Source: a virus
Virus record (IMG/VR): IMGVR_UViG_3300024346_000454
Location: 1-25,598 of that record
DNA: 25,598 nucleotides
Reading direction: 5' to 3' (one strand)
Shown: positions 2,765 to 25,009 of the stretch, one piece after another
Layout of the letters: each line of letters begins with the position of its first letter
How positions within the stretch are numbered: position 1 is the stretch's first letter
Notes under the pieces: generated by a model
Told to the model about the DNA's origin: nothing
The model's database searches: none
Seen by the model: only the letters and a program-made list of their open reading frames with translations
Program-made: the position numbers and the translations under genes

Positions 2765-2772
2765 TATTTATT
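2765..2772 (-). promoter_or_regulatory. Late-promoter-like box AATAAATA, 5 nt before an ATG
   Basis: On the minus strand AATAAATA is followed by CATAT and then the ATG of the Sm-like gene at 2759. The T4 late promoter TATAAATA spans about -13 to -6, so the transcript would start on the A of the ATG. The box overlaps the end of the glutaredoxin gene (its stop TAA is inside), so chance occurrence in AT-rich DNA is possible. The identical arrangement occurs at 19716. Confidence 0.4.
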
Positions 2773-3007
2773 GAGTTTTTAACCACGTGACTAGATCAGT
2801 ATAACCTCCAATGGCCTGATCATCGATAAAGATTTGAGGCACGGTGCGTGGTGCTGCCCCCAATCTTGTTGTTAGAGATTCTAACAATGTTTCTCTTGTT
2901 TCTGCTGTGATATAGTGTTCTGTGAACTCCCAGCCTTTGCTTTTAAACAAGTTTTTTGCTTGAACACAGTAAGGGCACTGGTCCTTGGTATACATTTCTA
3001 CTTTCAT
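2768..3007 (-). CDS. Glutaredoxin with CPYC active site
   Basis: A 79-residue thioredoxin-fold protein. The N-terminal strand KVEMYTKDQCPYC carries the classical dithiol active site CPYC (residues 11-14). TVPQIFIDDQAIGGY (about 55-69) carries the cis-Pro TVP and the GG-Y glutathione-binding segment. Length matches bacterial GrxC (about 80). Glutaredoxins re-reduce class Ia ribonucleotide reductase with glutathione, and this gene lies at the downstream end of the operon containing nrdA and nrdB. It starts one base after the stop of the other glutaredoxin gene. Confidence in the family is high; the electron acceptor is inferred from context. Confidence 0.93.
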   Translation of the reverse strand: MKVEMYTKDQCPYCVQAKNLFKSKGWEFTEHYITAETRETLLESLTTRLGAAPRTVPQIFIDDQAIGGYTDLVTWLKTQ

Positions 3008-3008
3008 T

Positions 3009-3281
3009 TTAACTTTCTTGATTTGTGTTTTTCCTTGCCATATAATCTGTTAGTCTAGTATATCCGACTACGGGAACGTCGTCTATGAAAACCACTGGCA
3101 CAGAAATACGATCAGTGTTCAATCTTTTCCCTAATTCATTAATAAGTGCATTTGAAGATTCACTAGTGAAGTCATCAGTGATGGTATATTCTATATAGTC
3201 ATAGTTATTTTCGCTTAATAATTTTTTAGATTCTTGGCAATATCCACAATTTTCCATTGTATAAATTTCTACTTTCATCAT
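3009..3281 (-). CDS. Second glutaredoxin, CGYC active site
   Basis: A 90-residue thioredoxin-fold protein with KVEIYTMENCGYC at the N-terminus (active site CGYC, residues 12-15), SVPVVFIDDVPVVGY (about 60-74) with the cis-Pro loop, and a short charged tail. It is clearly paralogous to the neighbouring CPYC protein but carries Gly instead of Pro in the active site, which is expected to change redox potential. Its start has two adjacent ATG codons (3281 and 3278), and it overlaps the stop of the upstream 51-residue gene by 4 bases. Context suggests service to the phage ribonucleotide reductase. A distinct partner for this paralogue is possible but not visible. Confidence 0.92.
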   Translation of the reverse strand: MMKVEIYTMENCGYCQESKKLLSENNYDYIEYTITDDFTSESSNALINELGKRLNTDRISVPVVFIDDVPVVGYTRLTDYMARKNTNQES

Positions 3282-3442: not shown

Positions 3443-3877
3443 TTATTGAAAGTTTTGTGGTGTATCATAAGTTTGAGCAAAGATATCTTTCTTTACTGCG
3501 CCATAGTCATTTGCACCGTGTTTGACAATAAAATCATTGCCAGCTGTATAATTTAAATCACCCCAAGATGTATGGATAACACCATCATGATCAGCCAGTT
3601 TAGCAAGTTTAAAAATCTTCTTAGGTGTGCAAACTCCATTGCCCAAGTCATCTTTCATTTGATGGAACTTTTCAGGAGTGATTGGATATTGTTCTCCTTT
3701 GGGTCCAGTCATAATATAATGACCTGCTAGATAGTTGACTGGGCCTTCTAAGGTTTGAACTGTGCCCGGCTCTTGAGCAATTTCATAACGCTCTTTGTTA
3801 GGCTTTTTAAATGTTTTAAATGATCCTTGATCAAACCATTTATCGTTAATTTGTGATGTTACTTCGTTAATTTTCAT
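3443..3877 (-). CDS. PGDYG-like protein, copy 2 of a tandem paralogous pair
   Basis: A 144-residue protein. It contains RYEIAQEPGTVQTLEG, a GHYIMTGPKGEQYPITPEKF segment (about 52-71), then KIFKLAKLAD, and a second related unit TSWGDLNYTAGNDFIV ... NDYGAVKKDIFAQTY. The G-x-x-[IV]-x...G-x-x-Y-x-I-x-x-x-x-F pattern resembles the small PGDYG domain, whose function is not known to me. Two similar units within one chain suggest an internal duplication. It is plainly homologous to the gene immediately upstream (shared YEIAQE, DDLGNG, KLA-LA, TS-G, Y-x-x-x-[YF]), which it overlaps by 4 bases. It sits inside the nrd operon. Confidence 0.65.
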   Translation of the reverse strand: MKINEVTSQINDKWFDQGSFKTFKKPNKERYEIAQEPGTVQTLEGPVNYLAGHYIMTGPKGEQYPITPEKFHQMKDDLGNGVCTPKKIFKLAKLADHDGVIHTSWGDLNYTAGNDFIVKHGANDYGAVKKDIFAQTYDTPQNFQ

Positions 3878-4290
3878 TGTGTTTCCCAGGGATATTCTAT
3901 TGCTGATAAGTCGTATAATTCTTCAAATACAGCTTTGTCTAATACTATATAGTCATCAGGATCTTGTAAAATAATATACTGATTGCCTGACGTATAACTT
4001 TTTTCTCCGTACGATGTTTGTAATGTACCGTTTTCGTTTGCAAGTCTAGCTAGACGTAATAATTTTTTAGTTCTACTGTTTCCGTTTCCTAAATCGTCAT
4101 TGCGTCTAATAAATTTATCGGCAGGAATAGCATATATGCCGTTAATTGGATCATTAATAATATAATCACCGGCATTGAAAGAAACAGAATTAATTGTTCC
4201 TGCTTCTTGAGCAATTTCATAAGTTTCTGTTCTTGTATTCTTTTCAAAAGTTAAAAATCCGCCATTTACAAAAAAATTATAATCAATCAT
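3874..4290 (-). CDS. PGDYG-like protein, copy 1 of a tandem paralogous pair
   Basis: A 138-residue protein homologous to the next gene downstream. It has YEIAQEAGTINS, AGDYIINDPINGIYAIPADK (about 41-60), RRNDDLGNGNSRTKKLLRLA, and a second unit YTSGNQYIILQDPDDYIVLD. The layout is an N-terminal GDYI-type unit, a basic linker and a C-terminal degenerate unit. AAGGAG precedes the ATG at good spacing, and nrdB ends 9 bases upstream. Function unknown. Placement between nrdB and redox genes hints at a link to nucleotide metabolism or protein modification, but this is only context. Confidence 0.65.
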   Translation of the reverse strand: MIDYNFFVNGGFLTFEKNTRTETYEIAQEAGTINSVSFNAGDYIINDPINGIYAIPADKFIRRNDDLGNGNSRTKKLLRLARLANENGTLQTSYGEKSYTSGNQYIILQDPDDYIVLDKAVFEELYDLSAIEYPWETQ

Positions 4291-15714: not shown

Positions 15715-17175
15715 TTAACTCTTTTTAAGAATATTCGCTAGCTTATTACTACTGTCCATTGTCCTAATCGCAATGGACGGTTCCACTTTAGGCTGTGGCG
15801 TTTCTAAACTAAACCCTTCTCTTGCCTTAGGTCTTTCCCAAGTTGTTGATACTGTCGGAGTGCTAGTAGATTCTGTTTGTGCTTGACGACGTAGTCTGTC
15901 ATGTAATACATCTGCTGTAGTAGGTGCTTCTGGACTGTCTTCATCTAAGTCTGTGATACGCAAACTAGTTGTGTTAAACTCTAACTCAATCTTGGTACCC
16001 ACTGCACTACTACTACGTGTCTTCATAAACTGTAACTGTACCCTACCACGCTCACGCATAGTCATACTGTTAAAGATACCAATTACATTGTCAGCAGTTT
16101 GAATCTTAGATAAGCCACCACTGATGTGACTGTGGTCAAACTCTACACTTTCCACAGCACCACGATTTAACTGCGATGCTGTACAGAATAAGAATCCACC
16201 CTGAACCGCCATTGCTCTAAGTTCTTCAGAAACATATTTGTCTTTAATAAAAGTATTCTCTGCTGAAATCTTTACTGACACAGGAGTCATCAAATCCAAG
16301 TAGTCAACTACAACAAAATCAATTTTATTGTTATGTTGAATTTGGAATTCTTTAATCCAAGACTTTAAATCATTAACAGTAATACCCGCTGTAAGTTGTA
16401 CAATCTGTAACCTACCTGCTTTCTTGCCTTTCATCTTAATGTTAAGGTCAACATCATCAATGTTTTTATAAATCTCTTTAGTAGCAATGCCCATAAGCAT
16501 GGCATCCATACGCATACTACATAAGCCCTCACTGAGTTCAAGACTAAAGTAAACGCCATTAAGTCCTTGTTGACTCCAATTTAATGCCAAGTTCTGCAAG
16601 AACAAACTCTTGCCTGCACCAGATCCTCCTGCAAAGATGTTTAGTTCACCTCGGTTAAATCCGCCATATAACTTTTCATCAATAGTCTTCCAACCTGTGC
16701 TGGTTCCGCCATTTTGATTCTTAAGCAACATTAGTCGACCCATGGGATCTTCATAGTAGTTTGTACCAAAGCTCTTGGGCAAGCCAATGTTGCTGGCATC
16801 CTTAATTAACTTTTCTACTTCACCATAACGTTGTTTGTCTAACAAGTCGGCGCTGGCGAGAATAGCTTTCTCTAATGCTTTATGTCTAGCAAACTGTTCA
16901 AACTCTGCTAAGAACCATTCCTTGTGACTACTTGCTTCACCTGGGATAACTCTAAGCTCTGTGTCTGTTACTGCTTTAATTTGTTCTATTGTTGGGCAAT
17001 CGCTGTACTTGCCGGCGTATTCTTTAATAAACTCTGCTGTTGCCTGCAAACTTCTAGAAAAATAACTACCTTCTAGTACGTTTTGACAACGACTTAACAG
17101 TTCCTTATCGCTTACTAAAAACTCTAAAAATAACTTTTGTAAGTCTACACTATATTCTTTTACTTCATTACTCAT
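15715..17175 (-). CDS. 41: Replicative DNA helicase, T4 gp41/DnaB type
   Basis: The hexameric 5'-3' helicase that opens the fork and works with the primase. From ATG 17175 it has 486 residues. The N-terminal 130 residues are helical. The RecA-like motor starts at TGWKTIDEKLYGGFNRGELN and shows Walker A GGSGAGKS (183-190), Walker B FVVVDYLDL (about 287-295) and motif TASQLNR (H4). The C-terminal 80 residues are a Pro/Ser/Thr-rich tail. It overlaps the upstream primase gene by four bases (ATGA), the expected gp61-gp41 pairing. A TTG two codons upstream is possible but unlikely. The DNA for the tail contains an 8-bp inverted repeat. Confidence 0.93.
   Translation of the reverse strand: MSNEVKEYSVDLQKLFLEFLVSDKELLSRCQNVLEGSYFSRSLQATAEFIKEYAGKYSDCPTIEQIKAVTDTELRVIPGEASSHKEWFLAEFEQFARHKALEKAILASADLLDKQRYGEVEKLIKDASNIGLPKSFGTNYYEDPMGRLMLLKNQNGGTSTGWKTIDEKLYGGFNRGELNIFAGGSGAGKSLFLQNLALNWSQQGLNGVYFSLELSEGLCSMRMDAMLMGIATKEIYKNIDDVDLNIKMKGKKAGRLQIVQLTAGITVNDLKSWIKEFQIQHNNKIDFVVVDYLDLMTPVSVKISAENTFIKDKYVSEELRAMAVQGGFLFCTASQLNRGAVESVEFDHSHISGGLSKIQTADNVIGIFNSMTMRERGRVQLQFMKTRSSSAVGTKIELEFNTTSLRITDLDEDSPEAPTTADVLHDRLRRQAQTESTSTPTVSTTWERPKAREGFSLETPQPKVEPSIAIRTMDSSNKLANILKKS
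15754..15778. repeat. Inverted repeat near the convergent gene junction
   Basis: GTCCATTG (15754-15761) pairs exactly with CAATGGAC (15771-15778) across a 9-nt loop. It lies inside the helicase tail, 40 bases past the stop of the convergent plus-strand gene. No T-run follows, so a conventional terminator is unlikely; it might slow transcription arriving from the plus-strand gene. Confidence 0.4.
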
Positions 17176-18143
17176 TGACAATATCTCTTTCCCATTAATC
17201 TAATTTTTGTTGGACTATGCTCTGCGGCCTGTAGTATGCTGTGAATAGCAAACAAGCGTCCATATTTCATTACTGCGTCGCTGACGTCTTTACAGTTTTC
17301 CCACTCAGGAAAACTTACACTCCAGCCGTAATCTGCGGCACGTTCAACTAAATCTCTGCCTGCTTTATCTGCGTCTGGAATAACGATAGGTTCTATATTT
17401 AAGTCTTCTATCAGTTGTGCTTGATGGTCACTTAAATTATTACTACCAATACTTAATCCACTGGTTAGTAACGCATCCATTTCACCTTCTGTGACAATAA
17501 CAAACTGTCTATTGTCCCGTTGATTATCTAAACCAAACACATAGTCTGCTGGTGCTTTTTTGTAATACTTAGAAAACTTCTCTGGTATTTCTCCTATGTA
17601 TCTGCTTTGAAAACCTACTAATCTGTTTTCATATGTTAAAGGCAGTATAGCTCGCTTATTAAGACCTGCGTATTCTGTATCTGTTTCTAACCATACTGCC
17701 AAGTCGTATACTTGTCTATGTTTAAGATATTCTATTTTCTCTGGATCGTTTATAGGTCTAACATCAAATCCTAGTTCATAATCAGGCCAGTTAGGTGTCC
17801 AAGATGGTTCTGGCTCACGTTGTACTAATGTTTCTACATCAGCTTGGCTTAGTAGTTCTAAATTAAGACGTTGTACTTCTGCTTCATCGAAGCCCAGTTG
17901 ACGCATAAGTTTACGCATCTTAAAGCTCAGTGTTCTTCCTGGTGTCCAGCTTGTTTTGAAGTTACAGTTAAAACAATGATAACTTACTGCACCATCTGGA
18001 TTGAACATCAGGCCGCCGCGACGTTTTGTATCTGGACGAGCTTGCCCGTTGACTACGCACATAGGACAGTTGAAGCTAATCCAGCCTTTTGGGCTAGGTC
18101 TTCCATTTATGCGAGATTGTAATAAAGTTTGTAAGGCCGACAT
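17172..18143 (-). CDS. 61: DNA primase, T4 gp61/DnaG type
   Basis: Makes RNA primers for lagging-strand synthesis with the helicase. It has 323 residues. The zinc finger uses Cys26-x2-Cys29 (NCPMC) and Cys57-x2-Cys60 (HCFNC). The TOPRIM catalytic domain shows VTEGEMDALL (Glu219) and IPDADKAGRD (Asp257, Asp259). Length is close to T4 gp61 (342). It is directly upstream of the helicase. A TTGACA-17-TAAAAT promoter lies before it, the -10 box ending 9 nt before the ATG with AAGG between. The C-terminal IRLMGKRYCQ may contact the helicase, by analogy. Confidence 0.93.
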   Translation of the reverse strand: MSALQTLLQSRINGRPSPKGWISFNCPMCVVNGQARPDTKRRGGLMFNPDGAVSYHCFNCNFKTSWTPGRTLSFKMRKLMRQLGFDEAEVQRLNLELLSQADVETLVQREPEPSWTPNWPDYELGFDVRPINDPEKIEYLKHRQVYDLAVWLETDTEYAGLNKRAILPLTYENRLVGFQSRYIGEIPEKFSKYYKKAPADYVFGLDNQRDNRQFVIVTEGEMDALLTSGLSIGSNNLSDHQAQLIEDLNIEPIVIPDADKAGRDLVERAADYGWSVSFPEWENCKDVSDAVMKYGRLFAIHSILQAAEHSPTKIRLMGKRYCQ

Positions 18144-18152
18144 GACCTTACT

Positions 18153-18181
18153 ATTTTAACTTCTGTAAAGTATCTTGTCAA
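18153..18181 (-). promoter_or_regulatory. Strong sigma70-like promoter for the primase-helicase operon
   Basis: On the minus strand the -35 box is TTGACA (18181-18176), the spacer 17 bases and the -10 box TAAAAT (18158-18153), 11 of 12 consensus positions. The ATG follows the -10 by 9 nt, including AAGG. Most of the promoter lies within the 28-bp repeat whose other copy forms the 3' end of the 271-residue gene, so the same -35 and spacer encode protein there. Confidence 0.75.
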
Positions 18182-18182
18182 C
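18155..18182. repeat. 28-bp direct repeat, copy A (after the SGNH gene)
   Basis: Identical over 28 bases to 18894-18921. This copy lies at and after the stop of the SGNH-like gene and carries the primase promoter. It is no longer part of a virion-protein reading frame, but on the minus strand it still spells the codons for VDKILYRS and a stop. Confidence 0.92.
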
Positions 18183-18894
18183 TATTAATTTCTTTTAAAT
18201 CCAAATTAATTAATCTAGCTATCTCGCAATGAGCTTCTTTACTAAAATGATCGCCTAACAATTTTGGAAAAGGTTTGATGAAATCTGATACGTCTAGTAT
18301 TGGTTGTCTGTAGTATTCGTTGATCAAGAAATAAAATTTTGTACTTTGTAAATCATTTACTCTAAAATTTATCTGTTTATTTAATTCAAGAAATTTATGC
18401 TTGATACCTTTGTTTTTTAAATAACCATGCAGCATGATCAAATCGACAAAATCTTCCAACGAGTATTGCAAAGGTTGATGCGAAACTCTTTTTGCATCTA
18501 AATATCTTTCAAAGCCCGGAGGATCACACGCACAGGCTAATTGTAAAGAAGTAATATTGTTTTTTGAATCAATTACTAGTTCTCTGCCAGATGGAATTAT
18601 TTGAAAATACACATAATCAATTTTTGTATTTTTTGATACTAGCGTCATCAAACTAATTATATTTTCTTGGATGCTGGCGCCATTTTTTGCGTGGTTGAAA
18701 GTTTTTATTTCTGGAGATTGTAGTAAAGCTGGATAAGCTAGTCTTTTATTATGTTCTTGATAACCTATAGGAGGAACTCTTCTTAAAAAATATTCTGTAG
18801 CATCTTTACATTCGTGTTTCCACGGAAAAATTTGATCATCCGACAGTTCGTCCCCTGCCGTTAAGCTACAACCAAAAAAGTGAACATCAATCAT
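18178..18894 (-). CDS. SGNH/GDSL-hydrolase-like protein, inserted gene
   Basis: A 238-residue protein. The N-terminus MIDVHFFGCSLTAGDEL matches block I of SGNH hydrolases with Ser10 as the candidate nucleophile (GCSL in place of GDSL). NHAKNGAS (about 67-74) fits the Asn/Gly blocks, and GDHFSKEAH near the C-terminus could give the Asp...His pair. Family members are esterases or acyltransferases acting on lipids, glycans or peptidoglycan. The substrate is unknown. The gene lies exactly between two 28-bp direct repeats; its ATG immediately follows the TAA of the 271-residue gene. It has its own AT-rich, Ile/Asn/Lys-heavy codon style, consistent with later acquisition. Confidence 0.75.
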   Translation of the reverse strand: MIDVHFFGCSLTAGDELSDDQIFPWKHECKDATEYFLRRVPPIGYQEHNKRLAYPALLQSPEIKTFNHAKNGASIQENIISLMTLVSKNTKIDYVYFQIIPSGRELVIDSKNNITSLQLACACDPPGFERYLDAKRVSHQPLQYSLEDFVDLIMLHGYLKNKGIKHKFLELNKQINFRVNDLQSTKFYFLINEYYRQPILDVSDFIKPFPKLLGDHFSKEAHCEIARLINLDLKEINS

Positions 18895-18921
18895 TTAACT
18901 TCTGTAAAGTATCTTGTCAAC
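18894..18921. repeat. 28-bp direct repeat, copy B (3' end of the virion-protein gene)
   Basis: Identical to 18155-18182. Here it encodes the last eight residues VDKILYRS and the stop of the 271-residue protein, and its last base is the A of the SGNH gene's ATG. The matching TTGACA survives, but the -10 position reads TAAATG, so promoter activity is probably weaker than at copy A. Confidence 0.92.
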
Positions 18922-19710
18922 AGTTCCGGTGTTATTGACATCCGGAGTATAGACTACTTTGATCCAACGGAAGCTACCGCGCCAGTTCCAACCTTGAGTT
19001 TGATGTGTGCCTGTTATACCAATGGTAGGACTCGTGGGAGTAGAGTTAAGTGGTAACCAATATTGTCCATCTATAAATCTAATAGGACTATAGTTTCCCA
19101 TACTTCCGTATTCTAAACTGCCAAAGGCTGTCAATGTACCCATAAAGTTAGTAGTTTCAATTTGAAGCGTGTGCAATGTACTACTGTCATTACGTTGTAA
19201 ATTACTAGCCACTGGTTGACTGATCATCGTGTCATTATCTTCTGTAAAATGTAACAATGTGCTGTTGAAGAACTTTGGATAGGCGCCATCTACTATTTCC
19301 ACTTCCATAGTAGCGGCTCGATTTAAATCGGAATACAAACTACGAGCCATACCATCATCTTCGTATATTTGAGCACTTAGTTGATAGATACCAGGTTCTA
19401 AATCTGTTAGGTCATAGCCAAATATGCTGAATTCACAGTAGCCGCTTTGTGGTTCAGTTATTTGTGCTCTACGCTGTAAAACTAATTCTCCTCGTCTAAC
19501 CTGCATAACATTAACCATAACAGTTTTACCTAATAGGTTAACGGGCTTGCGGTCCTGATTCTTAATATCGAAACCTAACTTAGTGTCTACACCTTTGTAG
19601 ATGGTCTTACGTATTGTGCTAAATGGCATATTTTTTGTCCTGCTATATCCGCTGGCGTATATTAACACACTTCGTTGTGGATAATCTAAAAATGTAAATG
19701 TGTCGCTCAT
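18895..19710 (-). CDS. Virion protein with BppU-like N-terminal domain
   Basis: A 271-residue protein. Residues about 38-140 show the pattern of the phage baseplate upper-protein N-terminal domain: KGVDTKLGFDIKNQDRKPVN, then GKTVMVNVMQVRRGELVL, SGYCEFSIFGYDLTDLEPGI and YQLSAQIYEDDG. The C-terminal half (YWLPLNSTPTSPTIGITGTH, WRGSFRWIKVVYTPD) is a beta-sandwich-like region. It is likely part of baseplate or tail-fibre attachment. Its last 28 bases are the repeat that recurs after the SGNH gene. AATAAATA ends 5 nt before the ATG and there is no Shine-Dalgarno sequence. Confidence 0.65.
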   Translation of the reverse strand: MSDTFTFLDYPQRSVLIYASGYSRTKNMPFSTIRKTIYKGVDTKLGFDIKNQDRKPVNLLGKTVMVNVMQVRRGELVLQRRAQITEPQSGYCEFSIFGYDLTDLEPGIYQLSAQIYEDDGMARSLYSDLNRAATMEVEIVDGAYPKFFNSTLLHFTEDNDTMISQPVASNLQRNDSSTLHTLQIETTNFMGTLTAFGSLEYGSMGNYSPIRFIDGQYWLPLNSTPTSPTIGITGTHQTQGWNWRGSFRWIKVVYTPDVNNTGTVDKILYRS

Positions 19711-21852: not shown

Positions 21853-22529
21853 TTAATTTCCGCCTTGTTAAAAACTTCCTGCACCCAATCAGCATCACCC
21901 TGCTGACGTTTTACTCTGGCCTTCCACGATAAAGGCTCAATGTAATCTATTAATGTTTGTACCTGCCCAGGTTCAAACCTATCAATTAATCTGCTACCCT
22001 GATCTGTAGCAAAGGTACACCATGGACTGATACGACCCATTCTGATATCTTGTACTGCGTCTACTGTGCTAACTTTAGCAAAGTATTCACACCAACTATA
22101 TCCAGTCTTTTCTGCCCAGGCTTTCATATTTAACAAACTTCGCTCAATAGCTCGTTCTACTGTTTCTTTTTTAGTTCTATCTTTTACATAAGTTTCATAG
22201 ACAACTGCTTTACACCAGTCATCTATCTTAATGGCATTTTTTAATACAAATCTAACAAACTCTTCTGGCTTATCCAAGTTCAAATCAATAATGTGCTTAG
22301 ACACTTTCATAAAGTCTAGATAGTATCTATCGTTGATAAAATCTTCATAGGGCTTGTCGTGCTTGACGTTGGCAATAATCATTTTACGATATATCAACCA
22401 ACTTTGATAAGCAATTCGATTCTGCTTAGAATCCTTGTCCATCATTCTACGCTTCTTCTCACATAAGTGAGACATAAGTGTAGTTTCTCTAACGAAGTCT
22501 TTATTACAATATTTGCATTTATAAGTCAT
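21849..22529 (-). CDS. Zinc-finger phage protein of unknown function, 226 residues
   Basis: From ATG 22529 the protein starts MTYKCKYCNKDFVRETTLMS and has a C2H2/C2HC-like finger: Cys5-x2-Cys8-x12-His21-x-Cys23 followed by a basic KKRR. The remaining 190 residues are helical (RIAYQSWLIYRKMIIANVKH, YYLDFMKVSKHIIDLNLDKP, ERAIERSLLNMKAWAEKTGY) with ISPWCTFATDQG and no catalytic motif I know. The finger and its place beside clamp-loader and helicase genes suggest a DNA-binding replication or late-transcription factor. ATG 22529 is chosen over 22562 because it follows the usual short overlap with the upstream gene (11 bases). Confidence 0.75.
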   Translation of the reverse strand: MTYKCKYCNKDFVRETTLMSHLCEKKRRMMDKDSKQNRIAYQSWLIYRKMIIANVKHDKPYEDFINDRYYLDFMKVSKHIIDLNLDKPEEFVRFVLKNAIKIDDWCKAVVYETYVKDRTKKETVERAIERSLLNMKAWAEKTGYSWCEYFAKVSTVDAVQDIRMGRISPWCTFATDQGSRLIDRFEPGQVQTLIDYIEPLSWKARVKRQQGDADWVQEVFNKAEIK

Positions 22530-23004
22530 TGGCACTAGCGATAACATCTTTGTCTTTAACATGGTATTGTTCTAACATATCCTTTGCGGATTTTTTATCT
22601 AAGTTGCTAATCCAAATATCTAACTCTTGGTCATCTAAGTGAGGATATTGCTCACGTAACCATGCTCTAAAAGCATTTTTCTTTTTTCTTTTGCCTCCAC
22701 CAGGAGCAATGTATGGGTGCTTGAGGCTTTTACCAATACCCACCATACTCATTAACTTCCAAGTCATCTCAGGATCTTTGACTTCACTAAAGTTGACGTT
22801 GACAATGTCATTGGTCATAATAAGGTAATGTTCAATAATAGCATTGTTAGCACTTTCTGCACTACTTAAATATCGTTGAACAAGCCAAGGGCTAAACCCT
22901 TTCATTTCTTCTTCACTGAGATTCTCATACAGAGTTTTATTACGAGTATCCAATGCTGGAAGTACTCGTTTAAACATATCTAACATTGGTGCTTTTGTTG
23001 CCAT
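22519..23004 (-). CDS. 62: Probable clamp-loader small subunit (T4 gp62-like)
   Basis: A 161-residue protein. FSPWLVQRYLSSAESANNAI, then MTWKLMSMVGIGKSLKHPYI and the basic GGGKRKKKNAFRAWLREQYP follow the layout of phage clamp-loader A subunits (T4 gp62: F-M-V-x-x-x-L-S, a middle helix, then a basic R-x-x-K-x-W). If correct, it joins gp44 to load the sliding clamp gp45. No gp44 is in this window, so the usual pairing cannot be checked. A TAGACA-17-TACAAT promoter ends 5 nt before the ATG. An unrelated conserved protein is the alternative. Confidence 0.5.
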   Translation of the reverse strand: MATKAPMLDMFKRVLPALDTRNKTLYENLSEEEMKGFSPWLVQRYLSSAESANNAIIEHYLIMTNDIVNVNFSEVKDPEMTWKLMSMVGIGKSLKHPYIAPGGGKRKKKNAFRAWLREQYPHLDDQELDIWISNLDKKSAKDMLEQYHVKDKDVIASANDL

Positions 23005-23009
23005 ACTGT

Positions 23010-23038
23010 ATTGTACACTCTTTAAAACATTTTGTCTA
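23010..23038 (-). promoter_or_regulatory. Sigma70-like promoter 5 nt before an ATG
   Basis: On the minus strand TAGACA (23038-23033), 17 bases, TACAAT (23015-23010), then ACAGT and the ATG at 23004. Ten of twelve positions match consensus. The start codon is where transcription would begin, and no Shine-Dalgarno sequence is present, so the mRNA is probably leaderless. The -35 lies in the end of the upstream gene. Confidence 0.6.
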
Positions 23039-23522
23039 TGGACAAGACTTCCGGCAGCTTGGTAGTTTCTTTAACAAAATACGCACACATCGGCTTATCA
23101 CCGCCTTCAAGAGGTACTGCTAAAATATGCCCGTGTTTAAGTTTAGGAGTATACCATCGAATGTCTTGAAACACATTAATAATCTCAAGTGGCTGGAAAT
23201 CTAATCTAAAACTACTAATAGGATTAAATGTAAATGCACTAAAGCCCCGATCATTGATATTCATAATAGGAACAATCTCCGGATCACCGTGATCCTTTTC
23301 ACCAATGACAATATACCAATCAAGTGGAACTTGAATAATATGTTCGCCAATCTTTAATACGGCTGCCGGTGCGTGGAATGTTTCCATAAAGATCAATGGC
23401 ACAAAATGATAGTCTACATTTTTAGGATCATTCCAATCGAGAACTCCATAACGCAGATCTTCTACTTCCTCTGGTAAAGAATTTAACTCAAAGGCTTCAT
23501 TATTAGAAGTTAGTATGTTCAT
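23022..23522 (-). CDS. Conserved-looking marine T4-like phage protein, 166 residues
   Basis: It starts MNILTSNNEAFELNSLPEEV and continues DLRYGVLDWNDPKNVDYHFV, IIQVPLDWYIVIGEKDHGDP and AFTFNPISSFRLDFQPLEII, with KLKHGHILAVPLEGG near the end. The pattern looks like a compact beta-rich protein that I associate with T4-like marine phages next to uvsW, but I know no function. It overlaps UvsW by four bases, so the two are co-transcribed. Confidence 0.7.
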   Translation of the reverse strand: MNILTSNNEAFELNSLPEEVEDLRYGVLDWNDPKNVDYHFVPLIFMETFHAPAAVLKIGEHIIQVPLDWYIVIGEKDHGDPEIVPIMNINDRGFSAFTFNPISSFRLDFQPLEIINVFQDIRWYTPKLKHGHILAVPLEGGDKPMCAYFVKETTKLPEVLSIDKMF

Positions 23523-24973
23523 AGGTATTTCACTTTCTCGATTTTATAAGGGTAACCCGCTTCCTCATAATATTTCTTTCTAGTAGTAAGATGCTTCTTA
23601 CTAAACTTTGCACTTGACGTCAAGTCCCAAATCTCTACATGGTCTTTATCTTGAGCTTTTCTAATACCTCGTCCAATGCTTTGGATAACGCGAACAACGC
23701 TCTTTCCGGGTTCCAAAAGAACCAGATTAAAAATACGAGGAATATTAATACCCACAGCGGCCACACCATAAGTCGCCACAATAACCTTGCCATCGCTCTC
23801 TTTAATCTCATCATAGTGTTCTTTCCTATCGCCTGTTTTCATTGCGCCGCTGACGAATACACTATCTGTGATTCTATCACAGAGCAATTCACCTGCTTTA
23901 ATTCTATCTACCAATACTAATGTGTTTCCAGATAAAGCAAGACTCCGAACAAACTCTGCAATGAAGTCTATGCGACGAGTATTTGTCGTTAAAAATGTTA
24001 GTTCTTCTTGATATGTGGAATACTGTGCTGTCTCTTGTAGTTGTACGACGTTAACTGTGCAGTTAGCTAACACCCCTTGATCCTGAAGATCTTTGGCAGC
24101 AATCTTATTTACTACAGGACCCAAAGTTGATATCAATCCAACTCGCTCAAAGTCCTCTTTAGGAATAGTTCCAGTAAGTCCCCAACGAATAGGTATATTC
24201 GCAAATGGGCCACTGAGCAATGCTTTAAGTACATCTGCCTTAGCTTGGTGTACCTCGTCAACAATAATTGCTACTAAGTCTTGTCCAAACTCTGCTAGAC
24301 TTAATGGACTTTCTCCGTCCTTAAAACGTTTTTCTAATATGTTAAGACTTTGCCAAGTACAGATAGTATGTGTTTTACCTAGTTCTTTTTTATCGCCAAA
24401 GTAAACACCTACATCGAGACCTAATAGTTCGTAGTCTTCTAATGTTTGTTTAACAAGGTCTTTGTTAGGAACGATAACTAAACTTCTGCCATAGTCTTGC
24501 ACACTTTTAGATAATGTAGCTGTTGTAATTGTTTTGCCTGCACCTGTACTGATTTCCTGTACACATTGTAAGTTATTTAGAAACTTGTTAATAGCATCGA
24601 CTTGATAGTCACGTAGTAAAACTGGAGCACCTTCGTTGACGTGACCTTTAGGCCAAATAGTTTGTTCGTGTGTTGTTTCTGTTACTTCAAGAAATTGAAA
24701 GTTATGATTAATTCTTTGGTCATTAATTTCAATATTGTAACCTTCATCCACTAAGATGGGTAAGATCCTATCTAGTAAGTTGAAATAAGTGCTGCCGCCT
24801 AAACTAAAATAACTAACACAACCATCCCAACGTCCTAGTTTATACGCAGGGCTATGATAAGCCCACGGTTGGAAGTACTTAAATTCTTTTTCTAATTTAC
24901 GTCTAGTGGATGTAACAAGGTCAGATATCTTAATATTAACTTCGTCTTTTATATGTATTGTACAAGATGTCAT
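23519..24973 (-). CDS. uvsW: UvsW-like ATP-dependent helicase
   Basis: A superfamily 2 helicase of 484 residues from ATG 24973. T4 UvsW remodels recombination intermediates and R-loops and helps switch from origin- to recombination-dependent replication. The N-terminal 100 residues fit the UvsW DNA-binding domain (KYFQPWAYHSPAYKLGRWDG). Motifs: LLRDYQVDAI (Q-like), Walker A STGAGKT (142-148), DEVH (239-242), LTGT (266-269), and VI QSIGRGIRK (431-439). An in-frame ATG at 25009 lies inside the terminator and is rejected. The -10 box TATACT ends 6 nt before the chosen ATG and no Shine-Dalgarno sequence is seen. Confidence 0.93.
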   Translation of the reverse strand: MTSCTIHIKDEVNIKISDLVTSTRRKLEKEFKYFQPWAYHSPAYKLGRWDGCVSYFSLGGSTYFNLLDRILPILVDEGYNIEINDQRINHNFQFLEVTETTHEQTIWPKGHVNEGAPVLLRDYQVDAINKFLNNLQCVQEISTGAGKTITTATLSKSVQDYGRSLVIVPNKDLVKQTLEDYELLGLDVGVYFGDKKELGKTHTICTWQSLNILEKRFKDGESPLSLAEFGQDLVAIIVDEVHQAKADVLKALLSGPFANIPIRWGLTGTIPKEDFERVGLISTLGPVVNKIAAKDLQDQGVLANCTVNVVQLQETAQYSTYQEELTFLTTNTRRIDFIAEFVRSLALSGNTLVLVDRIKAGELLCDRITDSVFVSGAMKTGDRKEHYDEIKESDGKVIVATYGVAAVGINIPRIFNLVLLEPGKSVVRVIQSIGRGIRKAQDKDHVEIWDLTSSAKFSKKHLTTRKKYYEEAGYPYKIEKVKYL

Positions 24974-24979
24974 AGACAC

Positions 24980-25009
24980 AGTATAACATATTAAGTCACA
25001 AAAAAGCAA
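24980..25009 (-). promoter_or_regulatory. Promoter of uvsW, overlapping a terminator
   Basis: On the minus strand the -35 box TTGCTT (25009-25004) lies in the 3' arm and T-tract of the terminator, followed by an 18-base spacer and -10 TATACT (24985-24980). The ATG of uvsW follows after GTGTCT. The same bases therefore end one transcript and help start the next. Confidence 0.55.

Follow-up and report, generated by a model that had tools for sequence, protein, structure and literature searches.

The window, as we call the whole 25,598-nt stretch of viral DNA that was analysed, derives from a large tailed phage and carries on its minus strand a virion structural gene, an SGNH-fold hydrolase-like gene, a DNA primase gene and a DnaB-like replicative helicase gene (Table 1). 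The counterpart of the virion gene in phage PA5oct is annotated as a structural protein and was detected by mass spectrometry. The SGNH gene is bracketed by an exact 28-nt direct repeat (GTTGACAAGATACTTTACAGAAGTTAAA), which occurs exactly twice in the window with a spacing of 739. The DNA between the copies holds the SGNH gene only, and the gained DNA amounts to 711 unique bases plus 28 duplicated ones.

Table 1. Genes and regulatory features around the junction of the virion and primase genes in the window
Feature	Position	Strand	Remarks
Virion structural protein gene (upstream)	18895..19710	-	271 aa
Direct-repeat copy A	18894..18921	-	native virion 3' end (VDKILYRS*) plus first base of SGNH start codon
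SGNH-fold hydrolase-like gene, inserted	18178..18894	-	238 aa; 711 bp of unique inserted DNA at 18183-18893
Direct-repeat copy B	18155..18182	-	duplicate linking SGNH 3' end to native primase leader
Putative primase promoter, TTGACA-N17-TAAAAT	18153..18181	-	11/12 match; last two native bases follow copy B
Hairpin, primase start codon in loop, AAGG ribosome-binding bases in stem	18131..18151	-	present in 28/28 empty-site relatives
DNA primase gene (downstream)	17172..18143	-	323 aa
DnaB-like replicative helicase gene	15715..17181	-	488 aa; overlaps primase 3' end

The 3' end of the virion gene reads GTT GAC AAG ATA CTT TAC AGA AGT TAA (VDKILYRS*), and the base directly after the virion TAA is both the first of the SGNH ATG (18894..18892) and the last of copy A, as an earlier note on this sequence had proposed. 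At the other end, the last codon and stop of the SGNH gene (A|GT TGA, 18183..18178) extend into copy B, which starts two bases ahead of the stop. Hence, the exact 28-nt copies reported in that note stand, but its placing of the second copy after the SGNH stop does not: the TGA lies inside copy B, as part of the copied −35 element TTGACA. Copy B further contains the first four bases of the primase −10 element. In copy A, the TTGACA is retained, and the −10 position has changed from TAAAAT to TAAATG.

A chance origin of the repeat is excluded because every other 28-mer of the window differs from it at 10 or more positions. The pair is the sole exact repeat of at least 20 nt within the window and, among 194 sequences (1.39 Mb), the only one of that length that brackets one gene. 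The remaining exact matches in that set are a conserved SGNH coding stretch in contig L024 and promoter arrays in L130 and L131, in which near-identical promoter and ribosome-site repeats precede successive small open reading frames (ORFs) (L130:5678-6749 and L131:3940-4169) and resemble T4 promoter cassettes. Elsewhere in the window, we observed tandem paralogues that share a 31-nt repeat (84%) at corresponding sites (3443-4290), two more tandem genes that are glutaredoxin-like (2768-3281), and a palindrome around ACTTGACGTCAAGT (23607-23630) within a helicase-like gene (23519-25009).

At the empty site, the putative primase promoter overlies the end of the virion gene, and its −10 element begins with the virion stop codon TAA. 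This TTGACA-N17-TAAAAT is the best-scoring promoter match in the surrounding 6 kb, and copy A no longer scores. That it lies on the repeat is supported by synonymous codons that do not vary: the Val codon GTT is present in 28/28 and the Asp codon GAC in 29/29 distinct sequences, counts that kinship inflates among virion proteins diverging by up to 48%. Each of these codons makes up about 41% of the use for its amino acid in the window; the codons adjoining them vary freely, and TAAAAT is retained in 27/29 sequences. The 29 sequences were collected by protein similarity, except for L025, which came from a 28-mer scan; a separate set of 114 contigs was selected by the promoter motif, and its promoter conservation is therefore by construction and not evidence. 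The duplication begins one base ahead of the −35 element and ends one base past the virion stop codon; at 28 bp, it is about as short as it could be without harming either neighbour.

The promoter is followed directly by a hairpin of the sequence GTAAGG-TCATGTCGG-CCTTAC. In L063 both of its arms have changed (AAGGC/GCCTT to AGAGC/GCTCT) with pairing kept. Transcripts arriving from upstream would contain the whole hairpin (computed at −11.7 kcal/mol, z −2.6), and those from the primase promoter would begin within its 5' arm and retain a weak remnant (−4.3, computed). These features suggest a read-through silencer. In T4 I-TevI, the ribosome-binding site is hidden only in transcripts from upstream promoters (PMC2988022), and by analogy the hairpin may serve as a comparable switch against upstream transcripts at the primase start.

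In 28/28 nonredundant relatives within the clade, the virion gene leads directly to the primase, which starts 11 to 12 nt past the virion stop, and the stretch occurs as a single copy. These relatives, whose virion genes have 52 to 94% amino acid identity and which provide 28 distinct junctions besides that of the window, were found with the virion protein and the primase as queries, searches in which the repeat did not serve as bait. The jumbo phage isolates PA5oct, Atu_ph07, Vibrio 2.275.O and SCTP-2 have the same gene order with the slot empty. Further, a primase tree (a quick search with SH-aLRT support only) places the window within a group of 29 rows, 28 of which are empty. The SGNH gene at this junction is an insertion. 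The earlier reading of a cassette insertion that duplicated the junction, sparing both the virion stop and the primase promoter, is thus borne out by the single-copy empty site and by the promoter on the repeat, with its invariant codons and its top score; of the two configurations expected in relatives under that reading, one copy joining the virion gene to the primase proved to be the rule, and other cargo between the two genes was also found.

The repeat is recipient DNA, since it holds the last eight codons and the stop of the virion gene together with parts of the primase promoter. The exact 28-mer is otherwise known once, at the end of a virion gene. Both copies carry the Lys codon AAG where near relatives (virion gene at 83 to 94%) have AAA, and the duplication is therefore later than that base change. 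The G+C content of the insert is 31.4%, compared with 37.0% for the window, and falls in the lowest 2% of 711-bp windows. This AT richness and the derived base common to both copies point to a recent event. The repeat geometry would also allow clean excision of the gene by recombination between the copies, although no variant with such a deletion turned up.

The AlphaFold2 model of the 238-aa protein (pLDDT 84, pTM 0.83) has its best Foldseek matches in the PDB among GDSL esterases, led by Escherichia coli TesA (E values of 8.9e-7 and 1.7e-6, target TM of 0.70 to 0.73), and this predicted fold suggests membership in the SGNH/GDSL superfamily. No Pfam or PHROGs family matched the protein at an E value of 0.1. 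PADLOC returned no match, and an anti-defence role was rejected on that account. The motif HFFGCSxTAGDEL (with S10), H216 and H222 are invariant in seven members of the family, so that the block I Ser and a C-terminal His are present. In the same seven members, no Asp of the DxxH type is conserved at position −3 of H216 or H222. Catalysis is uncertain because the family does not conserve the Asp that SGNH enzymes usually pair with this His, and either a Ser-His dyad or a noncatalytic role is possible.

The closest relatives of the protein (53 to 56%) are encoded in radical-SAM clusters, twice in L024 and once in L028, more distant ones (38 to 41%) in similar clusters of L029 and L032, and others (35 to 39%) behind uvsX in L030 and L031. 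The family was found in few contigs and, within the limits of those scans, not in cultured phages or species genomes. Repeats of at least 11 nt bracketing the SGNH copies are absent from L024, L028, L029, L030 and L032. The dN/dS ratio between the first L024 gene and its L028 orthologue is about 0.03, with dS near saturation, indicating a maintained protein. The company of glycosyltransferase and radical-SAM genes fits a role in modifying surface or nucleotide sugars, and phage SGNH proteins include proven surface-glycan deacetylases (PMC13123978). We infer that the product is an esterase- or deacetylase-type modifier of cell-surface or nucleotide-sugar substrates. As a separate observation, the two SGNH genes of L024 (L024:5273-6717) are in tandem and 54% alike; L028, otherwise 85% identical, has one, and the last codons of the second L024 copy equal intergenic DNA of L028. 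This difference could be either a gain or a loss.

Taking these observations together, we consider it probable that a promoterless SGNH gene was inserted at the stop/promoter overlap with a 28-bp duplication, with template switching as the likeliest route. As the promoter lies within the last codons of the virion gene, an insertion here can persist only by duplicating the overlap or by creating the promoter afresh. The source was probably the surface-glycan and radical-SAM repertoire of another large phage. The data establish the polarity of the insertion, the duplication, the conservation of the promoter and the donor family, whereas template switching, translational coupling and enzyme activity belong to the model. 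During replication or break repair, a copying strand would leave the end of the virion gene at TTAAA, matching the start of the donor gene, copy the SGNH gene and re-enter at GTTGA, at the −35 element, copying the 28 bp a second time. The outcome would be an intact virion gene and a primase that keeps its promoter, leader and start hairpin. From the arrangement, the SGNH gene would be cotranscribed with the virion gene, and its start at TAA|ATG would likely be reached by translational coupling.

The gene ends of relatives bear on this route. The SGNH gene starts with TTTAAATGG in the second copy of L024, compared with GTTAAATGA in the window, and ends with CAATAGTTGATTG in L028, compared with TTAATAGTTGACA in the window. 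The stretches common to these donor-type ends and the recipient are TTAAA and GTTGA, that is, the two edges of the 28-mer, and a strand switching at these two points would reproduce the present arrangement exactly. This comparison uses relatives that are 53 to 56% identical, and at the 3' side the match is obtained only when the aligned gene end is shifted by 7 nt. Two-step template switching appears likeliest because these ends suggest 5-bp microhomologies at both edges of the insert. The insertion is present in one genome only, and the mechanism therefore cannot be replicated.

Alternatively, the repeat could have arrived with the cassette, from a donor circle or phage region in which the SGNH gene adjoined the same promoter and 3'-end sequence, through homologous recombination at the 28 bp. 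The geometry is that of a single-crossover insertion, promoter and ribosome-binding-site repeats before small genes do exist in the neighbouring phages L130 and L131, and such an event would parallel the gene-shuffling promoter cassettes proposed for T4-type phages. However, every contig carrying the SGNH family shows at least 10 mismatches to the 28-mer, the only other known exact copy is a virion gene end, and 28 bp is short for homologous recombination. We consider this origin unlikely; a donor-supplied repeat was rejected, as the 28-mer is in no donor contig.

Much the same low likelihood attaches to the suggestion that the junction is a break-prone slot for free-standing homing endonucleases, with the SGNH gene captured during repair of a cut and the duplication left as a scar. 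A GIY-YIG-like gene, probably encoding a homing endonuclease, occupies the same junction in L218 (8628-9437), where L211 represents the empty relative, with 82 to 83% nucleotide identity on both flanks, although on the primase side the similarity does not return until about codon 50. In T4, free-standing endonuclease genes are found at junctions of this kind, where they meet the same difficulty with promoters (PMC2988022). However, the window holds no endonuclease gene, the GIY-YIG match of L218 is weak (E value of 0.027), and cargo is often found at the primase|helicase junction too, which makes the slot less than unique; the idea of a virion|primase slot uniquely open to cargo was dropped for that reason.

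An insertion by a transposase or integrase, with a 28-bp target duplication or an att core restoring the 3' end of the gene, is very improbable. Integrase sites typically show a gene 3' end regenerated by a direct repeat, as here, but a single ORF fills the insert end to end, neither a transposase or integrase gene nor terminal inverted repeats are present in it, and the core is not common to the donor loci. Homing, integrase and transposon origins were all rejected, as the insert has no such gene or ends. An assembly artefact has still less to commend it: the window is a metagenome contig and the repeat length is close to a k-mer size, but the two reading frames stop and begin precisely at the junctions and the gene is undamaged. 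Moreover, a false join presupposes another genome with the 28-mer at either end of the gene, and such a genome would itself have the structure described here.

The least credible explanation is that gene and repeats are ancestral and were cleanly deleted in all relatives. In its favour, a distant marine clade (L065-L111) has SGNH genes (216 to 232 aa) in the same slot, gained once, with stop/start overlaps on both sides and, in some contigs, a second gene beside them. However, they form a distinct family that has only the GCSxTxG motif in common with the present one, and orthology was rejected on that basis (hhalign, 23 columns). Further, the marine slot has no such repeat, the near relatives and isolates are all empty, and no sister lineage with the same SGNH gene in place was found.

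Cargo at the virion|primase junction of relatives thus comprises the unrelated marine SGNH family, the GIY-YIG-like gene and a glycosyltransferase-like gene. The last (L235:9890-10768, also in L254) has no Pfam match and was named by eye, and its 3' end is a perfect TTGACA-N17-TATAAT (12/12) before the primase. Other junctions have taken cargo as well. A cassette of a GlcNAc-type glycosyltransferase and another SGNH gene (L002:831-2375), which the window and all other near relatives lack, lies between homologues of window 23022-23522 and 22519-23004; it splits a TAGACA-N17-TATAAT promoter, and its tail provides a TTGATA at 16 nt as a new −35 element. In L030, a member of the present SGNH family sits between uvsX and the next gene, which in L116 (94% uvsX identity) overlap by 11 nt with the downstream AAGGAG inside uvsX. 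L030 retains this AAGGAG site, and AAAGGA-like bases flank its insert on both sides, perhaps as a decayed short duplication. An unrelated SGNH gene occupies the same uvsX junction in L153.

These cases allow a broader hypothesis, which we hold tentatively as possible rather than probable, that the virion|primase junction of this jumbo phage lineage repeatedly admits surface-glycan genes (SGNH, glycosyltransferase), being opened by free-standing homing endonucleases and filtered by the embedded promoter/hairpin switch. If true, an insertion would be kept only when it duplicates or rebuilds the promoter, and fresh ones would carry a duplication of the length of the stop/promoter overlap. The underlying rule is that, where a downstream promoter lies inside an upstream gene, a viable insertion carries either a duplication of at least the overlap or a new promoter; L235/L254, L002 and, less clearly, L030 fit this rule by other means. 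The acquisition of single genes by phages with packed, overlapping signals is already known and has usually been inferred from old, blurred junctions. What is new here is a duplication that saves the promoter to the base, together with a complete series of empty sites, in an insertion recent enough that both junctions are readable to the base, at an early stage of gene pick-up.

Among known systems, phage SGNH deacetylases such as G7C gp63.1 and Klebsiella prophage receptor-binding proteins share the fold class of the window protein (PMC13123978). However, those SGNH units are domains of tail spikes or fibres, whereas the window protein is free-standing, with 238 aa and no detectable Pfam or PHROGs similarity. 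Our literature searches found no SGNH single-gene insertions of this kind. Like morons and other auxiliary cargo, the SGNH gene is a single addition where relatives have an uninterrupted junction. Classic morons carry their own promoter and terminator; the SGNH insert brings neither, with no promoter of its own at 18892-18921, where copy A is without a −10 element. T4-type phages reportedly contain mobile regulatory cassettes of promoter-early stem-loops, in which, as with the 28-nt repeat, promoter-containing repeats flank exchanged genes. In contrast to these, the present repeat is the gene end of the recipient and single copy in relatives, and the 28-mer is absent from the donor loci and from elsewhere in the window.

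A further likeness is to the free-standing homing endonuclease genes of T4-like phages, which are likewise promoterless (PMC2988022), although the SGNH insert has an SGNH fold and no nuclease family was found in it. In both cases, single genes lie between conserved phage genes, their start touches the upstream stop, transcription from upstream is needed, and the displaced downstream promoter requires a solution. In T4, that promoter comes to lie within the endonuclease gene or in an intergenic stretch; in the window, an exact duplication keeps it.
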